From assembly GCF_019264375.1 (NCBI RefSeq), contig NZ_JAHVAI010000013.1, positions 62,001 through 126,000 on the forward strand: DNA of 64,000 bases. The letters run 5' to 3'. Of this stretch, positions 20,372 through 63,786 are shown piece by piece. The position numbers and the translations under genes are program-made. The notes under the pieces were generated by a model that had not been told where the DNA came from, ran no database searches, and saw nothing but the letters and a program-made list of their open reading frames with translations. This stretch comes from Sedimentimonas flavescens. GTDB taxonomy: Bacteria > Pseudomonadota > Alphaproteobacteria > Rhodobacterales > Rhodobacteraceae. Numbering within the stretch: the first letter of the stretch is position 1; each line of letters starts with the position of its first letter.

Positions 20372-20502
20372 ATTCAATTTCTATTAGGGGGTTACATGAA
20401 ACCTGACAATTGGTTTAAAGTGCCGTTGGGGTAGGATGTCTCTGACTTGTTCGGGGGCGGGTTGCGGCCTTGTGCCGCTGGTTTTTCTAGGGAGGATTGG
20501 CC

Positions 20503-22473
20503 ATGGCGGCTCAGGAGCAGGCAAACGCAGCGCCCGACGTGCGTGAAGTTCCGGCTGGATTTGAGAATGCTCACGCGAACACGCAGAAATATCTGGAGAT
20601 GTACCGTGAGTCTGTTGAAAACCCGGACGCGTTCTGGGGCCGTGAAGGCAAGCGTCTGGACTGGATGACGCCCTATACCAAGGTGAAGAACACGGACTTC
20701 ACCTATGGCAAGGTTTCGATCAAATGGTTTGAGGACGGCGTTCTGAACGCCTCGGTGAACTGCATCGACCGCCACCTGAAGGATCGCGCGCTGCAGACTG
20801 CGATCATCTTCGAACCCGATGATCCGGCTGAGCCTGCCCAGCACATCACCTACAAGGAGCTGTCCGAGAAGGTGAACCGGATGGCGAACGTCCTGCTGTC
20901 GCAGGGCATCATGCGCGGCGACCGCGTTGTCATCTACCTGCCGATGATCCCGGAAGCGGCCTATGCGATGCTGGCCTGTGCCCGTATCGGCGCGATCCAC
21001 TCGATCGTCTTCGCCGGCTTCTCGCCGGACGCTCTGGCGAACCGCATCAACGACTCGGGCGCGAAACTGGTGATCACCGCCGACTTCGCTCCGCGCGGTG
21101 GTCGCAAGACCCCGCTCAAGGCCAACACCGACGCCGCGCTGCTGCATTGCTCGGACAAGGTGCGTTGCCTTGTCGTGAAGCGCACTGGCGACCAGATCTC
21201 CTGGGTGCAGGGCCGCGACGTCGACCTGCTCTACCTGATGGATCACGTCTCGCCCGACTGCCCGCCGCGCCCGATGAACGCCGAAGATCCGCTGTTCATC
21301 CTCTATACCTCGGGTTCGACCGGCAAGCCGAAGGGGGTCGTGCACACGACCGGCGGCTATCTGGTCTATGCCTCGATGACGCATCAATACACCTTCGACT
21401 ACCATGACGGCGATGTCTTCTGGTGCACCGCGGACGTGGGTTGGGTGACCGGCCACAGCTACATCGTCTATGGTCCGCTGGCCAATGGCGCCACGACGAT
21501 CATGTTCGAGGGCGTGCCGACCTATCCGGACGCGGGCCGCTTCTGGGAGGTCTGCGAGAAGCACAAGGTCAACCAGTTCTACACCGCGCCGACGGCGATC
21601 CGCTCGCTGATGGGGCAGGGGCCGGAATGGGTTGAGAAGTACGACCTCTCGAGCCTGCGCGTTCTGGGTTCGGTGGGTGAGCCGATCAACCCCGAAGCCT
21701 GGGTGTGGTACGACAAATACGTCGGCAAGGGCAAATGCCCGATCGTCGACACCTTCTGGCAGACCGAGACCGGCGGCCACATGCTGACGCCGCTTCCGGG
21801 CGCGACGCCCACCAAGCCCGGCTCGGCCACCAACCCGTTCTTCGGCGTCAAGCCGGTGATTCTGGACGCGGCGACCGCCGTGCGTCAGGGCGAGACCGAG
21901 GCCGAGGGCGTGCTGTGCATCTCGGACAGCTGGCCGGGTCAGATGCGCACCCTCTGGGGCGATCACGAGCGCTTCCAGGAAGCCTATTTCGCGCAGTATC
22001 GCGGTTACTACTTCACCGGTGACGGCTGCCGCCGCGACAAGGACGGCTACTACTGGATCACCGGCCGCGTCGATGACGTCATCAACGTCTCGGGCCACCG
22101 GATGGGCACGGCCGAAGTGGAATCCGCGCTGGTTGCGCACCCGACCGTGGCCGAGGCCGCCGTTGTGGGCTACCCGCACGACCTCAAGGGCCAGGGCATC
22201 TACGCCTATGTCACGCTGATGAACGACATCGAGCCGACGGACGAGCTGCGCAAGGAGCTTGAGAAGTGGGTCCGCACTGAGATCGGCCCGATCGCCAAGC
22301 CCGATATCATCCAGTGGGCCCCCGGCCTGCCCAAGACCCGTTCGGGCAAGATCATGCGCCGCATCCTGCGCAAGATCGCCGAGAACGATTTTGGCTCGCT
22401 CGGCGACACCTCGACGCTGGCCGATCCTTCGGTGGTTGACGATCTGATCGCCAACCGTGGCAACAAGGGCTGA
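20503..22473 (+). CDS. acs: Acetyl-CoA synthetase (AMP-forming)
   Basis: A 656-residue enzyme that activates acetate with ATP and CoA to acetyl-CoA, AMP and pyrophosphate. The adenylate-forming signature [11 protein letters not shown] is at 268-278, WWQTETGG-type motif [11 protein letters not shown] in the middle, and the C-terminal catalytic loop [11 protein letters not shown] has Lys616, the residue acetylated by Pat/AcuA-type enzymes in homologues. ATG 20503 follows AGGGAGGA. Adenylate kinase starts 5 bases after the stop. The gene opens an acetate uptake and sensing run that extends to 30174. It is probably regulated through the long A+T-rich upstream region. Confidence 0.97.
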
Positions 22474-22477
22474 AACG

Positions 22478-23170
22478 ATGGCAACTGATAACAACGCAGT
22501 CGCGACGACGCCCGCCGTTCTGATCCTGCTCGGCCCCCCCGGGGCCGGGAAAGGCACCCAGGCCCGGATGCTCGAAGAGCGTTTCGGCCTGGTGCAACTC
22601 TCGACCGGCGATCTGCTGCGCGCCGCCGTTGCGGCGGGCACGCCTGCTGGCCTCGCCGCGAAAGCGGTGATGGAGGCCGGTGGCCTCGTCTCGGATGAGA
22701 TCGTGCTGAACATCCTGCGTGATCGCTTGGGCGAGCCGGACGTGACCGCAGGCGTGATCCTCGACGGCTTCCCGCGCACGGCGGGTCAGGCCGAGGCGCT
22801 CGATGCGCTCCTGTCCGAGGCCGGTCAGCGGGTCACCGCGGCGATCAGCCTTGAGGTGGATGACGAGGCAATGATCCAGCGCGTCGCTGGCCGCTATACC
22901 TGCGGCAGCTGCGGCGAGGGCTATCATGACGACTTCAAACAGCCCGTCCAGGCGGGTGTTTGTGACAAATGCGGAGGCACGGAGTTCAAGCGCCGGGCCG
23001 ACGACAACGCCGAGACGGCGCGTGCAAGGCTGGTCGCCTACCACGCCCAGACGGCACCGCTGATCGCCCACTACGGGGCCCTCGGCGTTCTCGAGAAGAT
23101 CGACGCGATGGGTAACATCGACGAAATCGCCTCGGGTCTCGGGTCGATCGTGGAACGCGTATCGGCTTAA
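22478..23170 (+). CDS. adk: Adenylate kinase with zinc-binding LID
   Basis: A 230-residue kinase (AMP + ATP to 2 ADP). The P-loop GPPGAGKGT is at 19-27 and the AMP-binding segment LSTGDLLRAAV follows. The LID domain has four cysteines, C142, C145, C162 and C165 (CGSC and CDKC), the zinc-binding type. It begins 4 bases after acs ends, so it is almost certainly co-transcribed and would remove the AMP made by Acs. Alphaproteobacteria normally also carry an adk beside ribosomal-protein genes, so this may be a second, specialised copy; that cannot be checked here. Confidence 0.93.
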   Translation: MATDNNAVATTPAVLILLGPPGAGKGTQARMLEERFGLVQLSTGDLLRAAVAAGTPAGLAAKAVMEAGGLVSDEIVLNILRDRLGEPDVTAGVILDGFPRTAGQAEALDALLSEAGQRVTAAISLEVDDEAMIQRVAGRYTCGSCGEGYHDDFKQPVQAGVCDKCGGTEFKRRADDNAETARARLVAYHAQTAPLIAHYGALGVLEKIDAMGNIDEIASGLGSIVERVSA

Positions 23171-23184
23171 TTTTGGGGGAGGGG

Positions 23185-23203
23185 CGGGCCCGTTCCGGGC
23201 CCG
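23185..23203 (+). terminator. Intercistronic GC hairpin after adk
   Basis: Two copies of the palindrome CGGGCCCG (23185-23192 and 23196-23203) separated by TTC can form a strong 8-bp hairpin. There is only a short T run (TTTCGG), so partial termination or mRNA protection is more likely than full termination. Confidence 0.45.
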
Positions 23204-23232
23204 TTTCGGAAAAAAAACAGGGAGTTACGCTT

Positions 23233-23490
23233 ATGGCGGACAAATCTTCGTCCAATGCCTACTGGAGAGCGAATATCCGGACCATCCAGCTGTATCTGGT
23301 GATCTGGTTCGTCTGCTCGTTCGGCTTTGGCATCCTTCTGCGCCCGATGCTGTCGGGCATTGGCATTGGCGGCACCGATCTGGGCTTCTGGTTTGCTCAG
23401 CAGGGCTCGATCATCGTCTTCTTGATCCTGATTTTTGCTTATGCCGCGCGCATGAACAAACTGGATAAAGAACACGGCGTGGAAGAATAA
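23233..23490 (+). CDS. DUF4212 small subunit of the sodium:solute symporter
   Basis: An 85-residue membrane protein with two hydrophobic helices: LYLVIWFVCSFGFGILL and GSIIVFLILIFAYAARMN. The N-terminus ANAYW-type motif SSNAYWRANIRTIQLYLV and the C-terminal LDKEHGVEE are typical of DUF4212, a small partner encoded directly upstream of VC_2705-family acetate-type symporters. ATG 23233 follows AGGGAG. The symporter gene begins 15 bases after its stop. It probably helps assembly or stability of the transporter. Confidence 0.9.
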   Translation: MADKSSSNAYWRANIRTIQLYLVIWFVCSFGFGILLRPMLSGIGIGGTDLGFWFAQQGSIIVFLILIFAYAARMNKLDKEHGVEE

Positions 23491-23505: not shown

Positions 23506-25233
23506 ATGGATCAGTTTACCCTAAACCTTCTCGTGGTGGGTGCGACTTTCGCGCTCTACTTCGGGATCGCGATCTGGGCCCGCGCGGGCTCGACCGCAGA
23601 ATTCTACGCGGCCGGTGGCGGCGTTCACCCGGTTCTGAACGGTATGGCGACCGGCGCTGACTGGATGTCGGCCGCGTCGTTCATCTCGATGGCCGGTATC
23701 ATCGCTTTCGGTGGCTACGACACCTCGGCCTACCTGATGGGCTGGACCGGTGGCTACGTGCTTCTGGCGATGCTTCTGGCGCCTTACCTGCGCAAGTTCG
23801 GCAAGTTCACCGTGCCGGAATTCATTGGTGACCGCTTCTACTCGGGCACCGCGCGCGTTATCGCCGTTATCTGCCTTCTGATCGCGTCGATCACCTACGT
23901 TATCGGTCAGATGTCGGGCGTTGGCGTTGCCTTCTCGCGCTTCCTCGAAGTCGAGGCTTCGACCGGCCTGTTCATCGGCGCCGCGGTCGTGTTCGCTTAT
24001 GCCGTTCTTGGCGGCATGAAGGGCATCACCTACACGCAGGTCGCTCAGTACGTCGTTCTGATCATCGCCTACACCATCCCGGCGATCTTCATCTCGCTCA
24101 ACCTGACCGGCAACCCGATCCCGGCTCTCGGCCTGTTTGCCGACGCCAAGTCGACCGGTGAGCCGCTGCTGACCACGCTGAACGGCATGCTCGCCGACCT
24201 CGGCTTCAGCTCGTACACGCAACAGTCCGACACCACGCTGAACATGTTCCTGTTCACGCTGTCGCTGATGATCGGTACTGCGGGTCTGCCCCACGTTATC
24301 GTGCGCTTCTTCACCGTTCCCAAGGTGTCGGACGCCCGTTCGTCGGCTGGCTGGGCGCTGGTGTTCATCGCGCTGCTCTACCTGACGGCTCCGGCCGTGG
24401 CGGCGATGGCACGCATCAACCTGGTCAACACCGTTTATCCGGAAGGCACCACCGCTGCGCCGCTGGCGTACGAAGCTCGTCCGGATTGGGTCAAGAACTG
24501 GGAGAAGACTGGTCTTCTCAAGTTCGAAGACAAGAATGGCGATGGCCTGATCAACTACGTTGCTTCGAAAGATGCCAACGAGCTTGACGTGAACCGCGAC
24601 ATCATCACCCTGGCGAACCCGGAAATCGCTGACCTGCCTGGCTGGGTTATCGCTCTGGTTGCTGCCGGTGGTCTGGCTGCCGCTCTGTCGACCGCTGCGG
24701 GCCTGCTCATGGCGATCTCGTCGGCTGTGTCGCACGACCTGATCAAGGGTCAGATCAACCCGGGCATCTCGGAAAAAGGCGAGCTTCTGGCCGCCCGTGT
24801 CTCGATGGCCGTTGCGATCGTTCTGGCGACCTACCTGGGTCTGAACCCCCCGGGCTTCGCGGCGCAAACCGTGGCTCTTGCCTTCGGTCTGGCAGCTTCG
24901 TCGATCTTCCCGGCGCTGATGATGGGTATCTTCTCGAAGCGTGTGAACTCCAAGGGCGCCGTTATGGGTATGCTCGCGGGTTTGCTGACCACCCTCGTGT
25001 ACATCTTCCTTCACAAGGGCTGGTTCTTCGTCGCAGGCACCAACAGCTTCACCGACGCCGACCCGCTGTTCCTCTCGATCAAGTCGACCTCGTTCGGCGC
25101 GATCGGTGCGATGATCAACTTCGCGGTCGCCTACTTCGTGTCGAACGCGACCGACGATGTTCCGGCCGATGTGCAGGAACTGGTCGAGTCGATCCGCATC
25201 CCGAAAGGCGCTGGCGCGGCCACCGGCCACTAA
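23506..25233 (+). CDS. Cation:acetate-type symporter (VC_2705 family of SSS)
   Basis: A 575-residue inner-membrane protein with about 13 helices. The sodium:solute symporter core is visible in GADWMSAASFISMAGIIAFGGYD and in PEFIGDRFYSGTARVIAVIC. A soluble loop near 342 (DKNGDGLINY) has an EF-hand-like pattern. Relatives take up acetate or other short-chain monocarboxylates with Na+ or H+. The gene uses many GCT and GTT codons compared with its neighbours, as highly expressed genes do. It is preceded by its DUF4212 subunit and followed by two hairpins and the DUF294 gene. Confidence 0.92.
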   Translation: MDQFTLNLLVVGATFALYFGIAIWARAGSTAEFYAAGGGVHPVLNGMATGADWMSAASFISMAGIIAFGGYDTSAYLMGWTGGYVLLAMLLAPYLRKFGKFTVPEFIGDRFYSGTARVIAVICLLIASITYVIGQMSGVGVAFSRFLEVEASTGLFIGAAVVFAYAVLGGMKGITYTQVAQYVVLIIAYTIPAIFISLNLTGNPIPALGLFADAKSTGEPLLTTLNGMLADLGFSSYTQQSDTTLNMFLFTLSLMIGTAGLPHVIVRFFTVPKVSDARSSAGWALVFIALLYLTAPAVAAMARINLVNTVYPEGTTAAPLAYEARPDWVKNWEKTGLLKFEDKNGDGLINYVASKDANELDVNRDIITLANPEIADLPGWVIALVAAGGLAAALSTAAGLLMAISSAVSHDLIKGQINPGISEKGELLAARVSMAVAIVLATYLGLNPPGFAAQTVALAFGLAASSIFPALMMGIFSKRVNSKGAVMGMLAGLLTTLVYIFLHKGWFFVAGTNSFTDADPLFLSIKSTSFGAIGAMINFAVAYFVSNATDDVPADVQELVESIRIPKGAGAATGH

Positions 25234-25245
25234 GCGTTTGGGCTT

Positions 25246-25300
25246 GGGTGGCGCTCCGGCGCCACCCCACAAAATCCCGGGTCGCCCGACAGGGCGACCC
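25246..25300 (+). other. Two tandem perfect hairpins between symporter and DUF294 genes
   Basis: Hairpin 1 is GGGTGGCGC-TCCG-GCGCCACCC (25246-25267). Hairpin 2 is GGGTCGCCC-GACA-GGGCGACCC (25279-25300). Both have 9-bp perfect stems with four-base loops and no T run. They probably block 3' exonucleases and stabilise the upstream symporter message, or attenuate read-through into the sensor genes. Confidence 0.65.
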
Positions 25301-25322
25301 TCCTTCTCCGGAGAAAGTCATT

Positions 25323-27149
25323 ATGGGCGGCGCACAACAGGCCATTATCGCGTTTCTTGAGAGCGTCCATCCTTATGACAACCTGCCGCGGGACGAGTTG
25401 GTGCGCGTCGCCAGTTCCTTCAGCCGCAGGGAGGTTCCCGCCGGAACCGACATCTATCGCAAGGACGACAAGCTTGAGGGCCTCTACCTGATCAAGTCGG
25501 GCGGGGTCGAGATCACCGAGGAGAACGGTGCCCTCGTGTCGATCCTTGGGCCGCGCAACTCGTTCGGCGAGCGCGGGCTGATGCGCGAAGGTATCGCCGT
25601 CACCAGCGCAAAGGCGACCGAGCAGACCGTGCTTCTGATGCTCCCGCTGGCCGAATTCGCCCGCCTGAGTGACGAGTTCCCTCCCTTCAAGCGGTTCTTC
25701 AACCGCACCCGCGGGCGCGAGTCGCGCCAGGCCGATATCGCGACGATGAAGATCGCCGATCTTCTGGCGCGCAAACCGATGAGCTGTTCGCCCGATGCGA
25801 CGGTGCGCGAGGCCGCGCAGATCATGCGCGATTCCCATGTCTCTTCGCTCGGCGTGACCGAGGGTGACAAGCTGCGCGGCATCGTCACTGTGCGCGATCT
25901 GTCCAACAAGGTGCTGGCGGGCGGGCTGAGCCCGGATGTGCCGGTGCGCGAGGTCATGACGCCCGATCCGATCTCGCTGCCGCTCAGTGCGCTTGGGTCG
26001 GACATCCTGCACATCATGCTGGAACGCCGTATCGGCCATCTGCCGATCGTCGAAGGCGGCCGCTTCGCCGGGATGATCACCCAGACGGACCTGACCCGCT
26101 TCCAGGCGGTCAGCTCGGCCGTGCTGATCCGCGACGTGGCTGGCGCCGACAGCGTCGAAGAGATGGCGGCGGTCACCGCGCGCATCCCGCAGCTTCTGGT
26201 GCAACTGGTCGGCGGGCATCACAGCCACGAGGTCGTTACCCGGCTGATTACCGATATCGCCGATGCCGTGACGCGGCGCCTGCTGGCCATGGCCGAGGCC
26301 GAGCTTGGCCCGGCGCCCGTGCCCTACCTCTGGCTGGCCTGTGGTAGCCAGGGCCGACAGGAGCAGACCGGCGTCAGCGATCAGGACAACTGCCTGATCA
26401 TCGACGATGCCGTGACGCCCGACGACATGGTTTACTTCCGCAAACTCGCCAAGATCGTCTCGGACGGGCTGCATGCCTGCGGCTACGTTTATTGCCCCGG
26501 CGACATGATGGCGACGGCTGATCGCTGGTGTCAGCCCGCGCGGGTCTGGCGCGACTATTTCCACGGCTGGATCAACAAGCCGAACCCCGAGGCGCAGATG
26601 CTCGCCTCGGTGATGTTCGACCTGCGCCCCATTGGCGGCAATGGCCCGAGCCTCTATCAGAGCCTGCAAGAAGAGACGCTGGAGATCGCCGCGCGTAACT
26701 CGATCTTCGTGGCGCATATGATCTCGAACTCGCTCAAGCACACGCCGCCACTTGGCCTGATCCGCGGTTTCGCGACGATCCGTTCGGGCGAGCATCGCAA
26801 TCATATCGACATGAAGCACAATGGCGTGGTGCCGGTCACCGATCTGGGCCGCGTCTATGCGTTGCAGGGGCGGTTGACCGCCGCCAACACTCGGGCGCGT
26901 CTGCTCGGTGCCGAGGAGGCGGGGATCATCTCGGCCTCGGGCGCGCGCGATCTGATCGAGGCCTATGACCTGATCGCCACGATGCGGCTTGAGAACCAGT
27001 CGCACCTGATCAAGGCAGGGCGGAAGCCGGACAACTATCTGGCGCCGTCGGACCTGTCGGATTTTGAGCGCTCGCATCTGCGCGACGCTTTCGTGGTGGT
27101 GCGCACGATGCAGTCGGCCGTCGGACACGGCAAGGCAGCAGTGAGCTAA
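25323..27149 (+). CDS. cNMP-binding / CBS / DUF294 nucleotidyltransferase
   Basis: A 608-residue cytoplasmic regulator; ATG 25323 follows GGAGAAAG. Domains in order: cyclic-nucleotide-binding-like (10-125, YLIKSGGVEI and FGERGLM), paired CBS domains (about 150-270, VREAAQIMRDSHVSSLGVTEG and LPIVEGGRFAGMITQ), DUF294 nucleotidyltransferase (300-440) and DUF294_C. The transferase motif is G341-S-Q-G-R, then the metal-binding Asp353 and Asp355 in SDQDN, as in GlnD-type enzymes. CBS pairs commonly bind AMP, ADP or ATP. It follows the symporter, an arrangement I recall as conserved in acetate clusters. Its protein target is unknown. Confidence 0.88.
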   Translation: MGGAQQAIIAFLESVHPYDNLPRDELVRVASSFSRREVPAGTDIYRKDDKLEGLYLIKSGGVEITEENGALVSILGPRNSFGERGLMREGIAVTSAKATEQTVLLMLPLAEFARLSDEFPPFKRFFNRTRGRESRQADIATMKIADLLARKPMSCSPDATVREAAQIMRDSHVSSLGVTEGDKLRGIVTVRDLSNKVLAGGLSPDVPVREVMTPDPISLPLSALGSDILHIMLERRIGHLPIVEGGRFAGMITQTDLTRFQAVSSAVLIRDVAGADSVEEMAAVTARIPQLLVQLVGGHHSHEVVTRLITDIADAVTRRLLAMAEAELGPAPVPYLWLACGSQGRQEQTGVSDQDNCLIIDDAVTPDDMVYFRKLAKIVSDGLHACGYVYCPGDMMATADRWCQPARVWRDYFHGWINKPNPEAQMLASVMFDLRPIGGNGPSLYQSLQEETLEIAARNSIFVAHMISNSLKHTPPLGLIRGFATIRSGEHRNHIDMKHNGVVPVTDLGRVYALQGRLTAANTRARLLGAEEAGIISASGARDLIEAYDLIATMRLENQSHLIKAGRKPDNYLAPSDLSDFERSHLRDAFVVVRTMQSAVGHGKAAVS

Positions 27150-27158
27150 GGGGTAACG

Positions 27159-27686
27159 ATGGTCAACGATTTCATCACCATGCTGGCAGCGGCCTTTCTG
27201 GCCGTCGTCGTGGTTTTCGCGGCACGCCATGCGCTGCGTAAGATCCTCGGCGTACAGCTGCCCAAATGGGCGATGCCTGCGACGGCCGGTGTGGCAATGC
27301 TGTTCGCCACGATCTGGAGTGAATACGCTTGGTATCCGCGCCTGCGCGCTGGCCTGCCCGAGACCGCGACGATCCTGCGCACGGTCGAGGAGAGCAAGCC
27401 GTGGCGGCCCTGGACCTACGTATTCCCGATGACGGTGCGGGCGATGGCGCTGGATCGCGGCACGGTCCGCCATCCTGCACCGGGGATCGCACAAACCGAA
27501 CTCTTGTTGATGCAGCGTTGGATGCCGGTACAGCCGGTCAGCGTTGCCTATGACTGCGAAAATGCGGCGCGCGCCGATCTTGTGGAGGGGGCGCAGATCA
27601 ACCCGGATGGCACGCTGACGGGGGCCGAATGGTACCCGTTGGATGCCACCGATGAGGGACTGAAGGCCGCCTGTCTGGGAGGATGA
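27159..27686 (+). CDS. Membrane-anchored protein of unknown function in the acetate run
   Basis: A 175-residue protein starting at ATG 27159 (9 bases after the DUF294 gene). Two N-terminal hydrophobic helices (FITMLAAAFLAVVVVFAARHAL and AMPATAGVAMLFATIW) are followed by a soluble domain of about 120 residues. It contains WSEYAWYPRLRAGLPE and a segment CENAARADLVEGAQINPDGT. I do not recognise the family. Its stop overlaps the response-regulator start (ATGA), so it belongs to the same transcript and may pass a signal to that pair. Confidence 0.75.
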   Translation: MVNDFITMLAAAFLAVVVVFAARHALRKILGVQLPKWAMPATAGVAMLFATIWSEYAWYPRLRAGLPETATILRTVEESKPWRPWTYVFPMTVRAMALDRGTVRHPAPGIAQTELLLMQRWMPVQPVSVAYDCENAARADLVEGAQINPDGTLTGAEWYPLDATDEGLKAACLGG

Positions 27687-28084
27687 ACATGGCCGACGGT
27701 GGGAGGAAACATCGTGTCCTTATCGTGGAGGATGAGGACAACATCGCAATCGCGCTCGACTATCTGATGAGCCGCGAGGGCTTCGATCACGACCGCATCG
27801 CCACCGGTGCGGGCGCGATCGATCGCATCCGTGCGACACATCCCGATCTGGTGCTTCTGGATGTCATGCTGCCCGAGGTATCGGGCTATGAGATCTGCCA
27901 GGAAATCCGGGCCGATACCGGTCTGAGCGACGTGAAGATCCTGATGATGACCGCGCGCGGCTCCGCCATGGAGCGGCGCAAGGGGCTTGCCCTCGGGGCT
28001 GACGGGTTCATCGCAAAGCCGTTCGAACTCAAGGAATTGCGTGACGAGGTGCATCGTCTTCTCGATGAGGGAGCGCAGACATGA
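27683..28084 (+). CDS. REC-only response regulator
   Basis: A 133-residue single receiver domain with no output domain. Phospho-acceptor Asp60 (VLLDVMLPEVSG), acidic pocket Glu16-Asp17, switch Thr90 and Lys112 are all present, so it should be phosphorylated. It is translationally coupled on both sides: ATGA with the gene before, and its stop overlaps the ATG of the exonuclease-kinase-like gene. The partner kinase-like protein has lost its phosphorylated His, so phosphate may come from another kinase such as the CrbS-like protein at 61081. The output partner is unknown. Confidence 0.88.
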   Translation: MNMADGGRKHRVLIVEDEDNIAIALDYLMSREGFDHDRIATGAGAIDRIRATHPDLVLLDVMLPEVSGYEICQEIRADTGLSDVKILMMTARGSAMERRKGLALGADGFIAKPFELKELRDEVHRLLDEGAQT

Positions 28085-30174
28085 CCCTGGCCAATCTCAG
28101 CCTCCGTTTGCGCGTCTTTCTGTTTTTTGCCGCGCTGGCGGCTGGGAATATCGGCGCCCTGGTCGCTGGAATGGTCTTCGGGTTTGAAAAGCTGGGCGTG
28201 CCCGAGGCGCTCGATGGTTTCATCATCGGCGGCACGGTCGCCGGTTTCGTGATCCTCGGGTTGATCACCGGCGTATGGTTCCTGTTCGACGAAAACGTGG
28301 CCAAGCCGATTGAGCGGCTTGCAGGCGGGATGCGCGCGCGCACCCACGCCGAGGTCGCCTCGGAGCTCGACCAGTCCTCCGGCCGTTATCTGGGCGATCT
28401 GGCCCCCGCAGCAGCCGCCGTCACGCAGCATCTGGCCGAGACGCGCTCGGCCCTCATTGAGTCGGTGCAGCGCGAAACCAACCGTCTTGCGCGCGAGAAG
28501 GAGCGGCTCGAGGCGTTGCTTTCGGACGTTCCCGTGGGGGTTTTGCTGTGCACCCCGGACCATCAGCTGGTTTTCTACAACGGGCAGGCGGTTGACCTTT
28601 TAGGTGGCGGCCATGCGCCGGGCCTTGATCGCCGGGTGTTTGATTACCTGCACCAGGCGCCGGTCGCCCATGCCTATGCACGTCTGATCGAGACCGACGA
28701 TCCCGACGCCGCCTCGGACTTGCTGTGTTCCACGGTGGCTGACGGCAAGGTGCTGGCTGCCCGTATGCGCCTGTTGTCCGAGGGAGAGGATCGTCACATC
28801 ACCTCCCGCCCCGGCTATGTTCTGACCCTGCGCGATGTGTCGGGCGACATGCGCGCCCATGCGCAGCGAGAGCAGCTGATGGACGAGCTGTTCGACCGGA
28901 TCCGCCGCCCTGCCGCGGCGCTGCAATCGCTGACCGGGGTACTGACCGCGGATGACGGCCCGTCGGGCGCGGCACGCGACAAGGTGCGCTCGGCTGCGCG
29001 AACCGAGGCGCTGATGCTGGCCGATGCGATCCATACCCTCTTCGAGCGTCACGAGGCCAACCGCGCCGACTGGTGGCCGCTCGGGATGATCCGGGCTTCG
29101 GACCTTGGCGATGCGGTGCGTGCGCGGGTCGAGGCCGATCACGGTCAGATCGAGATCGAGGCCGCGCCGCTCATGTTGCGCTGCGAGGGTTTTGAGATGG
29201 TTGCGCTTCTCGGAACGCTGACGTCGCGGCTAGAGGGCCGCTCCGCGTTCCGCCTTGAGATCTCCGAGGAAGAGGGCGGTGCGCTGATTGCACTGGAATG
29301 GCATGGTGCACCCGTGCCGATCAGCGAGCTTGAGCAATGGCTCGATGCTCCGCTTGAAGTAGGCATGGCCGATGTGACCGGGCGGCGGGTGCTTGTGACC
29401 CACGCCAGCGAGATCTGGCCCGAGCCGATGGCTGGCGGACGGGGGCGGCTCTGCATCCCGCTGCGCGAGGCCCGCCGCGTCACCAAGCGCCCCAAGCCGA
29501 TCCCGCGCGCGGTGGTTTACGATTTCGAACTCCTGGGCCAGGTGCGCGACGCCGAGGTTGCCGCAACGCCGCTGGAACGGCTGACCTATGTGGTCTTCGA
29601 TACGGAAACCACAGGCCTTTTGCCGACCGAGGGTGATGAGATCGTGCAGATCGCCGCCGTGCGTATCGTGAACGGGCGCCGGGTCGAGACCGAAGTGTTC
29701 GACACGCTCGTGAACCCGCACCGCAGCATCCCCCCGGCCTCGACCGAGGTGCACGGAATCTCGGATGCGATGGTCGTCGATGCGCCCGATATCGTCGAAG
29801 TCGGACGGCGTTTCCATAAATTCGCCGAAGGGGCGGTTCTGATCGCCCATAACGCGCCCTTCGATATGGAGTTTCTGCGCCGCAAGGAATTGTCGATCGG
29901 GGAGCATTTCGACAACCCGATCCTCGATACGGTTCTGCTGTCGGCGGTGGTGTTCGGCCAGTCCGAGACGCACAGCCTTGATGCGCTGACCCATCGCCTC
30001 GGGATCACGATCCCCGAGGAGGCGCGTCACACCGCGATCGGCGACACGGTCGCAACGGCGGATGCCTTCCTCAAGCTGCTGCCGGCGCTGAAGGCGCGCG
30101 GACTGAACACCTTTGGCGAGGTCGTGGCAGAGGTGCGCAAACACGGGCGGCTGCTCAAGGACCTCAACGCCTGA
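28081..30174 (+). CDS. Membrane pseudo-histidine-kinase fused to DEDDh 3'-5' exonuclease
   Basis: A 697-residue protein. Two membrane helices (VFLFFAALAAGNIGALVAGM and GFIIGGTVAGFVILGLITG) lead into a HAMP-like linker, a coiled coil (115-150), a PAS-like domain (155-250), and a dimerisation/ATPase-like region (255-480). At the H-box position the phosphorylated His is replaced by Asp272 (ELFDRIRRPAAAL), and no N- or G-box is recognisable. The C-terminal 200 residues are a DnaQ-type exonuclease with DTETTG (Asp507, Glu509), HNAPFDMEF (Asp595) and HTAIGDT (His650, Asp655): a complete DEDDh set. The nuclease should be active; the kinase part probably only senses or scaffolds. Confidence 0.85.
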   Translation: MTLANLSLRLRVFLFFAALAAGNIGALVAGMVFGFEKLGVPEALDGFIIGGTVAGFVILGLITGVWFLFDENVAKPIERLAGGMRARTHAEVASELDQSSGRYLGDLAPAAAAVTQHLAETRSALIESVQRETNRLAREKERLEALLSDVPVGVLLCTPDHQLVFYNGQAVDLLGGGHAPGLDRRVFDYLHQAPVAHAYARLIETDDPDAASDLLCSTVADGKVLAARMRLLSEGEDRHITSRPGYVLTLRDVSGDMRAHAQREQLMDELFDRIRRPAAALQSLTGVLTADDGPSGAARDKVRSAARTEALMLADAIHTLFERHEANRADWWPLGMIRASDLGDAVRARVEADHGQIEIEAAPLMLRCEGFEMVALLGTLTSRLEGRSAFRLEISEEEGGALIALEWHGAPVPISELEQWLDAPLEVGMADVTGRRVLVTHASEIWPEPMAGGRGRLCIPLREARRVTKRPKPIPRAVVYDFELLGQVRDAEVAATPLERLTYVVFDTETTGLLPTEGDEIVQIAAVRIVNGRRVETEVFDTLVNPHRSIPPASTEVHGISDAMVVDAPDIVEVGRRFHKFAEGAVLIAHNAPFDMEFLRRKELSIGEHFDNPILDTVLLSAVVFGQSETHSLDALTHRLGITIPEEARHTAIGDTVATADAFLKLLPALKARGLNTFGEVVAEVRKHGRLLKDLNA

Positions 30175-59004: not shown

Positions 59005-60327
59005 ATGGCCCGTTCGGCCCTGACCGGAACCCGCATTCGCGAGCGACGCACCGCGCTGCGCATAAAGCAGGCCGATCTGGCGCGTTCCGTGGGGATCTCT
59101 CCGGCTTACCTCAACCTGATCGAACACAACCGCCGCCGCGTGGGCGATGAATTGCTAGGCCAGATAGCCGGTGCGATGGCGGTCGATCCTGTCGCGCTGT
59201 CCGAAGGCGCCGAGGGGGCACTGTTCGACGGTCTGCGCGAGGCAGTCGCCGGGGCGGAGGCGGAGGGCGGCGCGCATATGGCCGGGATGCCCGAGCTGGA
59301 GCGGATCGAGGAATTCGTGGGTCGCTTTCCCGGTTGGGCCGCGATTCTCGCTGGACGACAGGCACGGGTGAACGCGCTGGAGCGTGTGGTTGAAAGCTAT
59401 TCGGAGCGGATGGCGCAGGACCCCTTCCTGCTGGCCTCGCTGCACGAGGTGCTTTCGGCGGTGACCTCGCTGCGCTCGACTGCGGCGATCCTGGTTGAGA
59501 CGGACGATATCGAACCCATCTGGCGCGCGCGCTTCCTGCGCACCATCCAGGAAGAAAGCCTGCGCCTGTCCGAGACCGCCGAGGCGCTGGTGGGCTATCT
59601 TGATGACCTGGAGGAGGCCGAGACCGGCCTCAGTTCGCCGCTCGAGCAGGTCGAGGCCTGGCTGTCGGCGCGCAACTGGCATCTTGAGGAACTGGAGGAG
59701 GCGACCCCGCCGCCGCCCGAGGCATTGATCGCGGGCGTAGCCGAGCTCGCCTCAAGCGCGGCGCGCAAGCTGGCGATCGCACATATCGAACGCGCGCAGG
59801 CCGATGCGCGCGCCCTGCCGCTGGAGGCCTTCCGTGACGCCGTAGCCGAGCTGGGCATGGATCCGGCGCTGCTGGCAACGCGCTTCGGCGCGCCTCTGGG
59901 CGCGGTGTTCCGGCGTCTTGCCACCTTGCCTCTGGCCGAGGGCGCGCAACCGGTGGGCCTTGTGATCTGCGACGGCTCGGGGGCGCTGACCTTCCGGCGC
60001 GGTGTGCCGGGCTTTGCCCTGCCGCGCTTTGGAGCGGCGTGCCCGCTCTGGCCGCTCTACGAGGCGCTTGCGCGTCCGATGCAACCGGTCCGCAAGGTTG
60101 TGGACATGGCCGGGCGCTTGCCCGAACGTTTCCTGACCTACGCCATCTGCCAACCCAGCCAGCCCGGCGGTTTTGATGGGCCCGTGCTGATGGAGGCGAT
60201 GATGCTGATCCTGCCGCCCCCGCCCGAGCGCGCGCCGGGCGAGAGGGCCATCGGCTCGTCCTGCCGGATCTGTCCGCGCGGGGAATGTGCAGGGCGCCGC
60301 GAGCCCTCGATCCTGTCCGAGGCCTGA
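59005..60327 (+). CDS. ScfR-like XRE regulator with DUF2083
   Basis: A 440-residue regulator. The N-terminal HTH is RIRERRTALRIKQADLARSVGISPAYLN. The middle region and the DUF2083 C-terminal end carry LPLEAFRDAVAELGMDPALLATRFG and a final cluster CRICPRGECAGRREPSI. This fits the short-chain fatty acyl-CoA regulator (ScfR) family, which controls propionate and acetate use, e.g. PccR of Rhodobacter sphaeroides. The gene is followed by a REC-only regulator and a CrbS-like kinase. ATG 59005 follows AAGGAG. Confidence 0.87.
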   Translation: MARSALTGTRIRERRTALRIKQADLARSVGISPAYLNLIEHNRRRVGDELLGQIAGAMAVDPVALSEGAEGALFDGLREAVAGAEAEGGAHMAGMPELERIEEFVGRFPGWAAILAGRQARVNALERVVESYSERMAQDPFLLASLHEVLSAVTSLRSTAAILVETDDIEPIWRARFLRTIQEESLRLSETAEALVGYLDDLEEAETGLSSPLEQVEAWLSARNWHLEELEEATPPPPEALIAGVAELASSAARKLAIAHIERAQADARALPLEAFRDAVAELGMDPALLATRFGAPLGAVFRRLATLPLAEGAQPVGLVICDGSGALTFRRGVPGFALPRFGAACPLWPLYEALARPMQPVRKVVDMAGRLPERFLTYAICQPSQPGGFDGPVLMEAMMLILPPPPERAPGERAIGSSCRICPRGECAGRREPSILSEA

Positions 60328-60392
60328 GTGCGGGGTTTGACAGTTCTCACGCGGCCCGCAATAGTCGGTTCGGGGAAGAGGAGGAAGCGCCG

Positions 60393-60785
60393 ATGTCTGG
60401 AAAGCATGTGCTTCTTGTCGAGGACGAGCCGCATATCGCCGAGGCGATCCGGTTCATTCTGACACGGGCGGGCTGGAAGGTCTCGCTTGAGGCTGACGGC
60501 GCGCAGGCCTATGCCCGCATTGGCAGCGAAAGGCCCGATGCGGTGATCCTCGATCTGATGCTGCCGGGCAGTTCGGGGCTCGATATCCTGACCAGTCTGC
60601 GTGGGGATGCCACGCTGGCAGAGCTGCCGGTGCTGATGCTGAGCGCCCGTGGGCAGGTGCGCGACCGCGATGCCGCAACGCGGGCGGGTGCGACGGCCTT
60701 CCTGGCCAAGCCTTTCGCCAATGGCGATGTTCTTGCGATGCTCGACGAGATCGTCACGCGCGCCAAAGAGCAGCGGAGCGCCTGA
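60393..60785 (+). CDS. REC-only response regulator beside the CrbS-like kinase
   Basis: A 130-residue receiver domain with no output domain. Phospho-acceptor Asp54 (VILDLMLPGSSG), acidic Glu10-Asp11-Glu12, Ser84 and Lys106 are present. ATG 60393 follows GAGGAGG. It is the probable partner of the kinase at 61081, separated by a small membrane-protein gene. Unlike Vibrio CrbR, it has no DNA-binding domain. It could shuttle phosphate to the REC-only protein at 27683 or bind a target directly. Confidence 0.88.
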   Translation: MSGKHVLLVEDEPHIAEAIRFILTRAGWKVSLEADGAQAYARIGSERPDAVILDLMLPGSSGLDILTSLRGDATLAELPVLMLSARGQVRDRDAATRAGATAFLAKPFANGDVLAMLDEIVTRAKEQRSA

Positions 60786-60786
60786 C

Positions 60787-61077
60787 ATGCCACAGACGGG
60801 CCAGCCGCTTTTCCTCGCCCGCAGATCCTACCGTCGCAGGCGCATGATGGATGCGGTGCGGATGTTGCCCGTGCTGGGGATGGTGCTGTTCATGCTGCCA
60901 AGCCTTTGGTTGCCGGGCGAAACCCCCCGACCTGATACCGGCCGCGGCGGGCTTTATATTTTCGCCGTCTGGGCCGGGCTGGTGGTGCTGGCCTTCGGCC
61001 TAGCGCGCGGCCTTGCCCCCGCGATGGAAGAAGAAGAGCGCACCGAGGAATTACCGCTTCAGGAAGAGGACGGCTGA
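60787..61077 (+). CDS. Small two-helix membrane protein
   Basis: A 96-residue protein: basic N-terminus (RRSYRRRRMM), helix 1 (MLPVLGMVLFMLPSLWLP), helix 2 (LYIFAVWAGLVVLAFGLA), acidic tail (EEEERTEELPLQEEDG). ATG 60787 starts 1 base after the regulator stop; the kinase gene starts 3 bases after its own stop. A conserved accessory of the sensor is a reasonable guess. Confidence 0.7.
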   Translation: MPQTGQPLFLARRSYRRRRMMDAVRMLPVLGMVLFMLPSLWLPGETPRPDTGRGGLYIFAVWAGLVVLAFGLARGLAPAMEEEERTEELPLQEEDG

Positions 61078-61080
61078 TCG

Positions 61081-63786
61081 ATGCCTTTCAACGTCCTCGT
61101 CGCGGTTTGTCTGGCCTATGTATTTCTGCTGTTCCTAGTGGCCTTCGTGGCCGAACGCCGGGCGCAGCGCGGTCGACTGAGATTCCTGCACCGTCCCATC
61201 GTCTATACCCTGTCGCTGTCGATCTATTGCACCGCCTGGACCTTCTATGGCGCGGTGGGCTACGCCGCGCGCTCGGGGCTTGAATTCGTCACCATCTACC
61301 TTGGGCCAACCTTGGTCTTCGTCGGCTGGTGGTGGATCCTGCGCAAGCTCGTGCGGATCGGGCGGGCGCAGCGGGTGACCTCGATCGCCGACCTGATTTC
61401 CAGCCGTTATGGCAAGTCGAACCTGCTGGGCGTGATCGTCACGCTGATGTCGGTGGCGACCTCGGCGCCCTATATCGCGCTGCAATTGCAATCGGTGACG
61501 CTGAGCTTCGGCGTGTTCGCCGCCGATACGCCCGAGGGGTGGGCGCTGCCCGATCAGGGTTCGACCGCGCTGTGGATTGCCGCGGGCCTCACACTGTTCA
61601 CCATCCTCTTCGGCACCCGTAACCTTGATGCGAACGAGCGTCACCACGGCGTTGTCATGGCCATCGCGCTTGAGGCGGTGGTCAAGCTGGTCGCGCTGCT
61701 GGCGGTGGGGGTATTCGTCGTCTGGGGTATTGCCCATGGGCCGCTGGATGTTCTGGCGCGCACAGATGCCTCGCCTATCGCCGACTGGGATCTGAAACCG
61801 GGCCGTTTCGCGGGGCTGATCTTCGTTTCGGCGGCGGCGATCCTGACCTTGCCGCGCATGTTCCAGGTGCTGGTTGTCGAGAACGTCGATGAGCGCCATC
61901 TGGCCACCGCAAGCTGGGCCTTCCCCGGCTATCTGATGCTGATGAGCCTCTTTGTCATGCCCATCGCGGTGATCGGGCTCGAGGTGATGCCCGCAGGCTC
62001 GAACCCCGACCTTTTCGTGCTGACGCTGCCGCTGTCGCAGGGGCAGGGTAACCTTGCGCTGTTGGCCTTTCTGGGGGGCTTCTCCTCGGCCACCTCTATG
62101 GTCATCGTCGCGGCGATTGCACTGGCGACGATGGTGTCGAACCATATCGTGACGCCTCTGTGGCTGGCTTTGGGAAGCCAGCGCGGCAAGGAGATGGGCG
62201 ATATCCGCGGCCTCGTGCTGATGTCCCGGCGGCTTTCCATCGCGGTCGTGCTGGGGATGGGCTATGGCTATTACAGCATGTCGGGCGGCTCTGCGGCGCT
62301 GGCTTCGATTGGCTTGATCGCCTTCGTCGGGGCCGCGCAGGTGCTGCCTGCGCTGCTCGGCGGGATGTTCTGGCGTGGAGCCACCCGGATGGGCGCGGTG
62401 GCCGCGTTGCTGACCGGCTTTGCGATGTGGCTTTACACGCTGTTTCTGCCGTCCTTCGGCGAAAGCGGTCTGATCTCGGCCCAGGTCATGGCGGCAGGGC
62501 CTTTCGACATTGGCTGGCTGCGGCCGCAGGCACTGTTTGGGATCGACGCGCTCGACCCGCTGTTGCACGCGCTGTTCTGGAGCCTGCTGTTCAACACCAT
62601 CTCGTTCATGGTGTTCTCGACGGCCTCCTTCCCCGGCCCGATGGAGCGTCTTCAGGGCGTGGCCTTCGTGAATATCTTCGAGCAGACGCCGGGCGCGCGT
62701 AGCTGGCTGCGCGGTCAGGCCGAGGCTGAGGACCTGCTGTCGATGGCGCAGCGCATCCTGGGTGCAGAAGAGGCACAGCGGTTCTTCCAGGCGCAGGCGG
62801 CGGGGCAGGGCAAAGAGGGCTTCCTGCCCGACCCGACGCCCGATTTCCTCGCGCGGCTTGAGCGGCAGCTGGCCGGTTCAGTCGGCGCGGCCACGGCTCA
62901 TGCGATGATCTCGCAGTTGACCGGGGGCAGTTCGGTCTCGGTGCAGGATCTGATCGCGGTGGCTGGCGAGGCGGCCGAAATCAAGGAATACTCGGCCCAG
63001 CTTGAGGCGAAATCCGAGGAACTGGCCCGCACCGCCCGCGCGCTGCGCGATGCCAACGAAAAGCTGACCTCGCTGTCGGTGCAGAAAGACGCCTTCCTGG
63101 GCCAGATCAGCCACGAGTTGCGCACGCCGATGACCTCGATCCGGGCGTTCTCCGAGATTCTGATGGAGCCCGATCTGCCCGACGCCATGCGCTCACAATA
63201 TGCCGAGATCATCCATGAAGAGGCCCGCCGCCTGACGCGTCTGCTCGACGATCTGCTGGATCTGAGCGTGCTGGAAAACCGCAAGGTGCAGTTGAATGTG
63301 GGCGTGGCCAACCTGCATGACCTGCTCAACCGCGCGGTGCAGTCGGCCTCGAACACCCGGCCCGAGCGTTCGTTCCGGGTCGAGCGTGACTTCCCGTCTG
63401 AACATATGCCGGTCTTCACCGATACCGACCGTCTGGTGCAGGTCTTCATCAACCTGATCTCGAACTCGCGCAAGTATTGCGACAATGAGCGCGCCGTGCT
63501 GCGCATCGAGGTGAAGAAGCGCGGCCAGAAGGTTCAGATCGACTTCATCGACAATGGCTCGGGCATCCCCAAGGCGAGCCAGGCGCTGATCTTCGAGAAA
63601 TTCTCGCGGCTGACGGATACGAGCCGCGCGGGCGGGGCGGGTCTTGGTCTCGCGATCTGCCGCGAGATCATGGCCAATCTGGGCGGCAAGATCGACTACG
63701 TGCCGGGTCAGGGGGGGGCTGCCTTCCGCGTGACCTTGCCGTTGCGACGCCGCGAGATGGAAGAGGCGGCGAAGGCCTCGGCCTGA
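61081..63786 (+). CDS. CrbS-like symporter-histidine kinase
   Basis: A 901-residue sensor. The first 480 residues form an SSS-family symporter-like membrane part (about 13 helices; starts NVLVAVCLAYVFLLFLVAFVAE). A STAC-type segment follows (FLARLERQLAGSVGAATAHAM, about 595-620), then a coiled coil and HisKA with H678 (QISHELRTPMTS). The ATPase domain has N795 (NLISNSRKY), DNGSGIP at 824 and GGAGLGLAI. CrbS-type proteins sense acetate or a related solute and control acs. Unlike Vibrio CrbS I see no PAS or C-terminal receiver domain. Confidence 0.92.
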   Translation: MPFNVLVAVCLAYVFLLFLVAFVAERRAQRGRLRFLHRPIVYTLSLSIYCTAWTFYGAVGYAARSGLEFVTIYLGPTLVFVGWWWILRKLVRIGRAQRVTSIADLISSRYGKSNLLGVIVTLMSVATSAPYIALQLQSVTLSFGVFAADTPEGWALPDQGSTALWIAAGLTLFTILFGTRNLDANERHHGVVMAIALEAVVKLVALLAVGVFVVWGIAHGPLDVLARTDASPIADWDLKPGRFAGLIFVSAAAILTLPRMFQVLVVENVDERHLATASWAFPGYLMLMSLFVMPIAVIGLEVMPAGSNPDLFVLTLPLSQGQGNLALLAFLGGFSSATSMVIVAAIALATMVSNHIVTPLWLALGSQRGKEMGDIRGLVLMSRRLSIAVVLGMGYGYYSMSGGSAALASIGLIAFVGAAQVLPALLGGMFWRGATRMGAVAALLTGFAMWLYTLFLPSFGESGLISAQVMAAGPFDIGWLRPQALFGIDALDPLLHALFWSLLFNTISFMVFSTASFPGPMERLQGVAFVNIFEQTPGARSWLRGQAEAEDLLSMAQRILGAEEAQRFFQAQAAGQGKEGFLPDPTPDFLARLERQLAGSVGAATAHAMISQLTGGSSVSVQDLIAVAGEAAEIKEYSAQLEAKSEELARTARALRDANEKLTSLSVQKDAFLGQISHELRTPMTSIRAFSEILMEPDLPDAMRSQYAEIIHEEARRLTRLLDDLLDLSVLENRKVQLNVGVANLHDLLNRAVQSASNTRPERSFRVERDFPSEHMPVFTDTDRLVQVFINLISNSRKYCDNERAVLRIEVKKRGQKVQIDFIDNGSGIPKASQALIFEKFSRLTDTSRAGGAGLGLAICREIMANLGGKIDYVPGQGGAAFRVTLPLRRREMEEAAKASA

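Follow-up and report, generated by a model that had tools for sequence, protein, structure and literature searches.

A predicted pseudo-histidine-kinase fused to a DEDDh exonuclease, its kinase core kept almost only beside a REC-only protein

The gene at 28081..30174 of the window, by which we mean the whole 64,000-nucleotide stretch of Sedimentimonas flavescens DNA that was analysed, encodes a pseudo-histidine-kinase fused to a DEDDh exonuclease, and judging from its homologues it represents a conserved family present outside the Alphaproteobacteria too. As the comparison of loci shows at the level of sequence, the dead kinase core has been maintained almost exclusively in lineages that have retained the adjacent REC-only protein as well; upon loss of the REC, the core appears to have decayed or to have been excised, leaving a membrane-PAS-exonuclease behind. 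This co-loss provides natural with/without controls. We consider it probable, if not strongly so, that the protein is a membrane-anchored, signal-controlled exonuclease whose dead kinase core serves as a docking platform for the phosphorylated REC (REC~P), with a separate kinase as the donor, and that it forms an RNA-directed arm of the acetate/monocarboxylate response. The first-pass annotation had proposed a sensory nuclease controlled from the membrane with a REC-only partner, an idea to which the conservation of the nuclease site, the kinase fold retained in the structural models and the repeated co-loss of REC and core lend support as a prediction.

Protein architecture and operon context

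Open throughout as a single reading frame, the gene (all features discussed here lie on the + strand) encodes 697 aa, arranged as a membrane hairpin, a PAS-like region, the DHp and CA parts of a kinase, and the DEDDh exonuclease. The predicted hairpin (about residues 8-72, 28102..28296) is marked by hydrophobic stretches and by AlphaFold2 (AF2) helices at 8-38 and 41-89, and the PAS-like region (residues 153-252, 28537..28836) by weak PAS_4 and PAS_8 matches and a low-confidence AF2 structure. Of the HAMP/PAS-like sensory parts originally claimed, PAS was recovered, but weakly, with Pfam matches below the cut-off (E 0.001-0.003), whereas HAMP had no Pfam match in the 697-aa protein and was dropped. 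The search of the protein's own genome returned one full match only, namely the protein itself; a second match, 36% identical, comprised the exonuclease part only and lies in a 238-aa frame elsewhere. A full-length AF2 model built with 36 homologues reached a mean pLDDT of 76.5 and a pTM of only 0.36, the latter counted against our best explanation; CA and exonuclease were mostly confident, PAS and linker poor. By Foldseek, the sensor half of this model matched WalK, VicK-like proteins, LOV-kinase chimeras, HK853-RR468 and DivL, and the nuclease half epsilon, PolC, DinG, RNase T and ExoX. Conservation, taken as the mean for the commonest residue, was highest in the exonuclease (0.87) and lowest in the DHp and CA regions (0.60 each).

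The DHp-like helices (residues 254-289 and 297-331, 28840..29073), which emerged from sequence alignment, AF2 and Foldseek, contain the codons of D272 (28894-28896), at the phospho-His site, and of R275 (28903-28905), and the CA (ATPase) fold (residues 335-463, 29083..29469; AF2 and Foldseek), devoid of ATP motifs, contains that of W446 (29416-29418). D272 occupies the position of the H-box His as placed by the R-x-P motif (D-R-I-R-R-P), just as the annotation had read it; in an alignment of 79 sequences, with the window's own protein included and L051 and L058 omitted, this position is D in 76, E in two and A in one, and position 275 is R in 79/79. A look for a normal HisKA His nearby did return H260 (59/79), yet it lies 12 residues ahead of the site so defined and was ruled out as phospho-acceptor. 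None of the 87 long members, meaning those with a kinase core, has His at the kinase site, and 73 of them have D or E (65 of the 74 accompanied by a REC). The dead kinase thus looks ancestral to the family, and a death of the kinase within the Rhodobacteraceae was rejected in favour of one that was dead beforehand.

Neither HisKA nor HATPase_c gave a Pfam match in the 697-aa protein at E<=1, a threshold at which HisKA matched 3/49 relatives and HATPase_c 2/49. A separate AF2 model of the DHp-CA part, built with 49 homologues, reached a pLDDT of 92 and a pTM of 0.75, and its best match among solved structures (Foldseek) was DivL (4q20), followed by LvrB and HK853; the TM-scores of these fold matches were about 0.4-0.46 and their RMSD was high, as a different relative placement of the two subdomains would produce. 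The earlier statement that no ATPase boxes are recognisable therefore applies to the motifs, which are gone, but not to the domain, which persists as a fold. Alignment and model together show the ATP motifs and the kinase site to be lost and the predicted fold retained. An active histidine kinase was rejected on the missing His and HATPase_c match, though the DHp-CA fold is kept.

The exonuclease domain (residues 501-670, 29581..30090; Pfam and alignment) matches RNase_T (PF00929) over residues 504-663 at E 3.1e-39, covering profile positions 1-164 of 164. All five catalytic residues listed by the annotation are in place: D507, E509 and D595 are identical in 79/79 aligned family sequences, and H650 and D655 in 78/79, with one gap each. 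The site is complete and the predicted enzyme seemingly intact. Its identity as DnaQ (DNA polymerase III epsilon) was rejected, with 114.8 bits for TIGR01406 against a cut-off of 222.7, and the domain stayed below all curated equivalog cut-offs compared.

The gene closes a run that comprises, in this order, acetyl-CoA synthetase (acs, 20497..22473; TIGR02188 1023.1 bits, cut-off 724.95), adenylate kinase (adk, 22457..23170, start codon uncertain; profile match), a symporter small subunit (DUF4212, 23173..23490; profile match), a VC_2705-type sodium/solute symporter (23506..25233; TIGR03648 822.6 bits, cut-off 320.75), a protein with cNMP-binding, two CBS, DUF294 nucleotidyltransferase-like and DUF294_C domains (25248..27149, start codon uncertain), a small membrane protein of 175 aa (27159..27686), and the REC-only response regulator (27683..28084; 133 aa, profile match and alignment). 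Its designation as an acetate gene run stands as far as the true acs is concerned, which scored above its cut-off, but not for the symporter, which is of the VC_2705 type and far below the ActP cut-off. Among 133 loci from the window's taxonomic family (coded f1), excluding two of 135 with less than 4.5 kb upstream, 132 have DUF294 and 131 the symporter ahead of the exonuclease in the same orientation, and the small membrane protein is conserved in 122. Fusions of exonuclease, CBS and DUF294 occurred in 11/289 sampled alphaproteobacterial genomes (two reported with one internal stop, one in two pieces; domains confirmed for L289). Within the DUF294 protein, a G-S...D-Q-D stretch resembles what we take to be a nucleotidyltransferase site.

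The REC gene overlaps the upstream gene and the downstream pseudokinase-exonuclease gene by 4 bases each, which suggests translational coupling. D60 and K112 are present in 118/118 distinct REC sequences (143 rows with repeats) and T90 in 115/118; the annotated position at the end of an operon, next to an intact REC-only partner, was borne out. In a coevolution analysis of REC and DHp (mutual information with APC; 160 pairs, 121 non-redundant), the top 50 were not enriched for the helix-helix interface expected, a null result that we counted against our best explanation.

Joint loss of the REC-only protein and the kinase core

In genome contigs 224 relatives were confirmed, and the best 80 of these 224, 56-97% identical in their best segment, belong to Rhodobacteraceae, Paracoccaceae, Rhodobacterales or their genera, with three labelled only Alphaproteobacteria. 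The sensor-half profile was found in 13/385 of the alphaproteobacterial genomes sampled, counting the window's own, and the exonuclease profile in 139/296 f1 genomes, of which the window's own and three with partial matches (G643, G596, G606) were set aside, and 135 neighbourhoods were examined. Furthermore, the exonuclease profile with long frames was also found in other classes of the phylum, where 20 loci were chosen among the best non-f1 matches. Sixteen of these (L272-L281, L283-L288) are long fused forms, all with an adjacent REC except L272. Of the other four, L282 lacks a REC and is of the short form, L289 and L290 have the exonuclease joined to CBS-DUF294, and L291 is a separate small protein.

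The f1 loci fall into two forms, a long one with the kinase core and a short one in which the membrane-PAS part leads directly onto the exonuclease. Counting as adjacent any same-strand REC no more than 700 bases away, the faint RECs of L100 and L233 included, the 135 f1 loci comprise 50 long forms with REC, 11 long forms without, 74 short forms without (one of them, L189, at a contig edge and not evaluable), and no short form with REC. The long forms that lack a REC are themselves altered: R275 is present in 56/58 long loci with REC (a set that includes eight from other Alphaproteobacteria) versus 3/11 without, and W446 in 58/58 versus 0/11. For an acidic residue at 272 the figures are 53/58 and 7/11, and its presence in 7/11 REC-less long forms was among the points counted against our best explanation.

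Taken as a core signature, R275 plus W446 is intact at 72 of 74 loci with an adjacent REC and at one of 88 without; 72 of these 162 loci thus have both, 87 neither, and three are exceptions. L132, perhaps misaligned, and L135 have a REC and lack R275, whereas L102 has the intact signature and its REC about 5 kb away. A true exception is L107, which has lost the core but has a REC beside the live kinase at a distance of 3.6 kb. These four loci were also set against our best explanation, as was the post hoc choice of the signature. On a tree of the 162 loci, from which the kinase core sequence, L189 (contig edge) and L289-L291 were left out, the REC state changes at least 11 times. Supported branches gave seven independent pairs. 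In these, the core changed in the same direction as the REC in 7/7 for 132 of 200 random pairings; in the remaining 68, six of seven agreed and the seventh did not differ, and opposite pairs were absent. The resulting p of 0.0156-0.0312 is generous, since we settled on the signature only once the difference had been seen. Tests of independent pairs by length only gave no opposite pair, with too few pairs for significance.

Is the REC truly missing from these genomes? The best REC match in 27 REC-less f1 genomes, from the 85 REC-less loci, reached 133.6 bits, versus 205.9-214.7 bits in six control genomes, a contrast flattered by the presence of the control RECs in the query alignment. When 29 RECs were kept out of the query, 24 exceeded 133.6 bits and five scored 19-92, so that a strongly diverged REC would be missed. 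Finally, a single deletion cannot remove both elements, since the membrane-PAS coding, which is retained, stands between the REC upstream and the core downstream.

Candidate phosphodonor, proposed mechanism and alternatives

An intact transporter-like histidine kinase at 61081..63786 is a candidate phosphodonor for the REC. Its HisKA and HATPase_c domains were matched and its translation contains HELRTP; the membrane half (residues 6-461) matches PDB 10ed, named a histidine kinase, at E 1e-69, and residues 43-941 are 43% identical to the kinase of L280, while the first 641 residues gave no Pfam match at E<=10. A faint match of 77 aa (E 0.001) connects it with the window's symporter, and homologous kinase ORFs in L098, L108, L275, L285 and L286 contain internal symporter matches at E 2e-4 to 1e-6. 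Homologues, identified by the membrane half against L280, lie near 17 loci, namely 16 of the 30 non-f1 loci and L239, the only f1 locus with such a kinase close by. The kinase half falls within the examined stretch, with HELRTP, at 12 of these 17 loci and runs off it at five; L102 and L107 show another gene order, with intervening genes. Near the other 14 of 30 non-f1 loci, no such kinase above 150 bits was found in the stretch examined, which, like the single f1 locus, was entered against our best explanation; among these, L289-L291 are without a sensor and L104 has a kinase fragment at a contig edge. Next to the kinase in the window are a second REC-only protein (60390..60785; profile match), which shares 43% identity with the first over 106 residues, and a ScfR-like regulator (PF09856), which stays below the RamB cut-off. 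This neighbouring REC may be the kinase's real target, a further point against our best explanation, or the kinase may phosphorylate either REC.

In the mechanism that we favour, the transporter-like kinase, here 31 kb away, would probably phosphorylate the REC, and REC~P would then dock on the DHp helix around D272 and R275, as DivK~P does on DivL. With the PAS region as a putative second input, both inputs could shift the dimer and thereby switch or position the C-terminal exonuclease, whose most plausible substrate would be RNA, making it a post-transcriptional branch of the acetate/monocarboxylate response beside the DUF294 protein. In favour of this mechanism we also count the fusions of exonuclease to CBS-DUF294 and the need for pp_0353 in Pseudomonas putida growing on pyruvate. 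Control of the exonuclease would in this way be linked to the DUF294 nucleotidyltransferase and to monocarboxylate uptake, and lineages without REC would operate a simpler PAS-exonuclease.

The short forms bear directly on another, rather unlikely explanation, by which the exonuclease is constantly on, the membrane-PAS-kinase part anchors and dimerises it near the transporter, and the REC stabilises or places it without any switching. Since the core-less forms keep anchor and exonuclease (the 74 f1 loci without adjacent REC, one not evaluable), the core would be unneeded for the basic job, as this explanation demands; however, the REC-facing Arg and W446 are kept for as long as the REC is, and the near-invariant D60, T90 and K112 of the REC would be needless for a mere anchor. 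The gene neighbourhood invites a further reading, to which we give little credence, in which the exonuclease serves as an eraser, removing nucleotides that the DUF294 protein has attached to a protein or to an RNA end. A precedent for such an attach/remove pair is GlnD, with its uridylyltransferase and HD parts. The fusions of exonuclease, CBS and DUF294 in 11/289 genomes, the upstream DUF294 gene in 132/133 f1 loci and the G-S...D-Q-D stretch, whose likeness to a nucleotidyltransferase site we presume, would all fit, but we know of no DUF294 target, and the gene linkage fits other roles too. Also against an eraser, the single deletions of pp_0353 and pp_0354 in P. putida differ on pyruvate. 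Carried to its end, this reading would make nucleotide removal the output of a two-component system, running from the transporter-like kinase through the REC-only protein to a membrane pseudokinase-exonuclease that reverses DUF294 nucleotidyl marks or tails in a GlnD-like write/erase cycle, a scheme that we hold to be quite improbable.

Highly unlikely, in our view, is a pseudokinase acting as a sink or phosphatase for REC~P in a wider acetate network, with an exonuclease that is unrelated or devoted to DNA repair. An acid at the H site and the lost ATP motifs would suit a sink or phosphatase, and a domain of the PolC/epsilon type would suit repair; yet many lineages drop REC and core and keep the sensor-exonuclease in the same operon, the DnaQ cut-off was missed, and DivL is no phosphatase (PMC4211667). 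If our preferred mechanism, a REC~P-docked membrane exonuclease, is true, two-component signalling would directly control a nuclease, with a dead kinase as the receptor for a phosphorylated REC, and DivL would be one case of a broader design in which nucleic-acid degradation can be the output. Moreover, the pairing of DUF294 and exonuclease offers a way into a nucleotidyltransferase family that is still uncharacterised and is tied to acetate/pyruvate use.

Relation to known systems

Titles and abstract openings in the open PMC literature revealed neither a kinase-exonuclease fusion nor a pseudokinase-REC control layer. Part of the link from an RNase_T protein and its CBS-domain partner to monocarboxylate use has already been published. 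In P. putida, pp_0353 (RNase_T) lies in an operon with pp_0354 (CBS domain), and deletion of pp_0353 slowed growth on pyruvate, not on 20 mM acetate, the pp_0354 mutant likewise lacked an acetate defect, and the two single deletions had different pyruvate phenotypes (PMC9927547). That both mutants grew on acetate without a defect is a further observation counted against our best explanation. The authors saw no sign of a role of pp_0353 in DNA consumption and offered mRNA decay as a speculation (PMC9927547). Furthermore, Pflu5625 of P. fluorescens, from the CrbS/R regulon, is described as having cAMP-binding, CBS and nucleotidyltransferase domains.

The PP_0353/PP_0354 pair, a target of MxtR/ErdR, thus resembles the system described here, likened by family name, in its operon of an exonuclease-family gene and a CBS-domain gene and in its tie to acetate and pyruvate, but differs in that the passages considered mention no sensor or kinase part. 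An intact kinase half, and perhaps a transporter-like membrane half, is what the kinase at 61081..63786 has in common with kinases of the CrbS/MxtR/CbrA type. The DEDDh domains of PolC-type and epsilon (DnaQ) proteins have the same fold and the same five catalytic residues, whereas the exonuclease here is joined to a membrane sensor.

The closest parallel to the kinase core is DivL of Caulobacter, the best solved fold match, which likewise has a kinase fold without phospho-His, a single-domain REC partner and PAS ahead of the core. To bind DivK~P, DivL can do without the Tyr that stands in for its His but not without R553, at H+3, and it neither autophosphorylates nor dephosphorylates DivK (PMC4211667); R275 also sits at H+3. 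Because this Arg is kept, the REC chemistry is intact, and the Arg tends to be lost with the REC, the dead kinase may, by analogy, be a receptor for REC or REC~P, with the exonuclease as its output. The two proteins part ways at the site itself and downstream of it: DivL has Tyr and regulates the kinase CckA, whereas the protein described here has Asp or Glu and carries an exonuclease output of its own.

Apparent loss of the kinase core in one clade

In the 162-locus tree, nine loci from other genomes (L157, L178, L185, L186, L198, L204, L205, L208, and L216) form one clade. Seven of them are long forms with a degenerate core and the other two are short forms, the latter having the membrane-PAS part joined directly to the exonuclease. 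Here, the kinase core seems to be in the process of being lost, with loss of the REC-only response regulator coming first. Sinirhodobacter sp. WL0062 carries two copies of the pseudokinase-exonuclease gene, namely L003, which is intact, and L051 (NODE_23), whose open frame spans only 235 aa, its best segment being 72% identical.

Operon neighbours and exonuclease fusions

The adenylate kinase gene (window 22457-23170) is placed between acs and the symporter genes, and its product could serve to recycle AMP formed in the Acs reaction. The small membrane protein (window 27159-27686), for which a family search gave zero matches above the cut-off, is kept in 122 of the 133 loci of the window's own family. 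In other Alphaproteobacteria, an RNase_T-type exonuclease like that of the window was found fused to CBS-CBS-DUF294-DUF294_C (11/289 genomes), for instance at L289 (537-2648, minus strand); a second example of an exonuclease-CBS-DUF294 fusion, L290, is adjoined by symporter genes.

A possible second sensing cluster in the window

At window 59005-63786, 31 kb distant from the pseudokinase-exonuclease operon, consecutive genes encode a ScfR-like regulator, another REC-only protein besides that of the operon, and a transporter-like histidine kinase that is intact; together they may represent a second acyl/acetate-sensing cluster.
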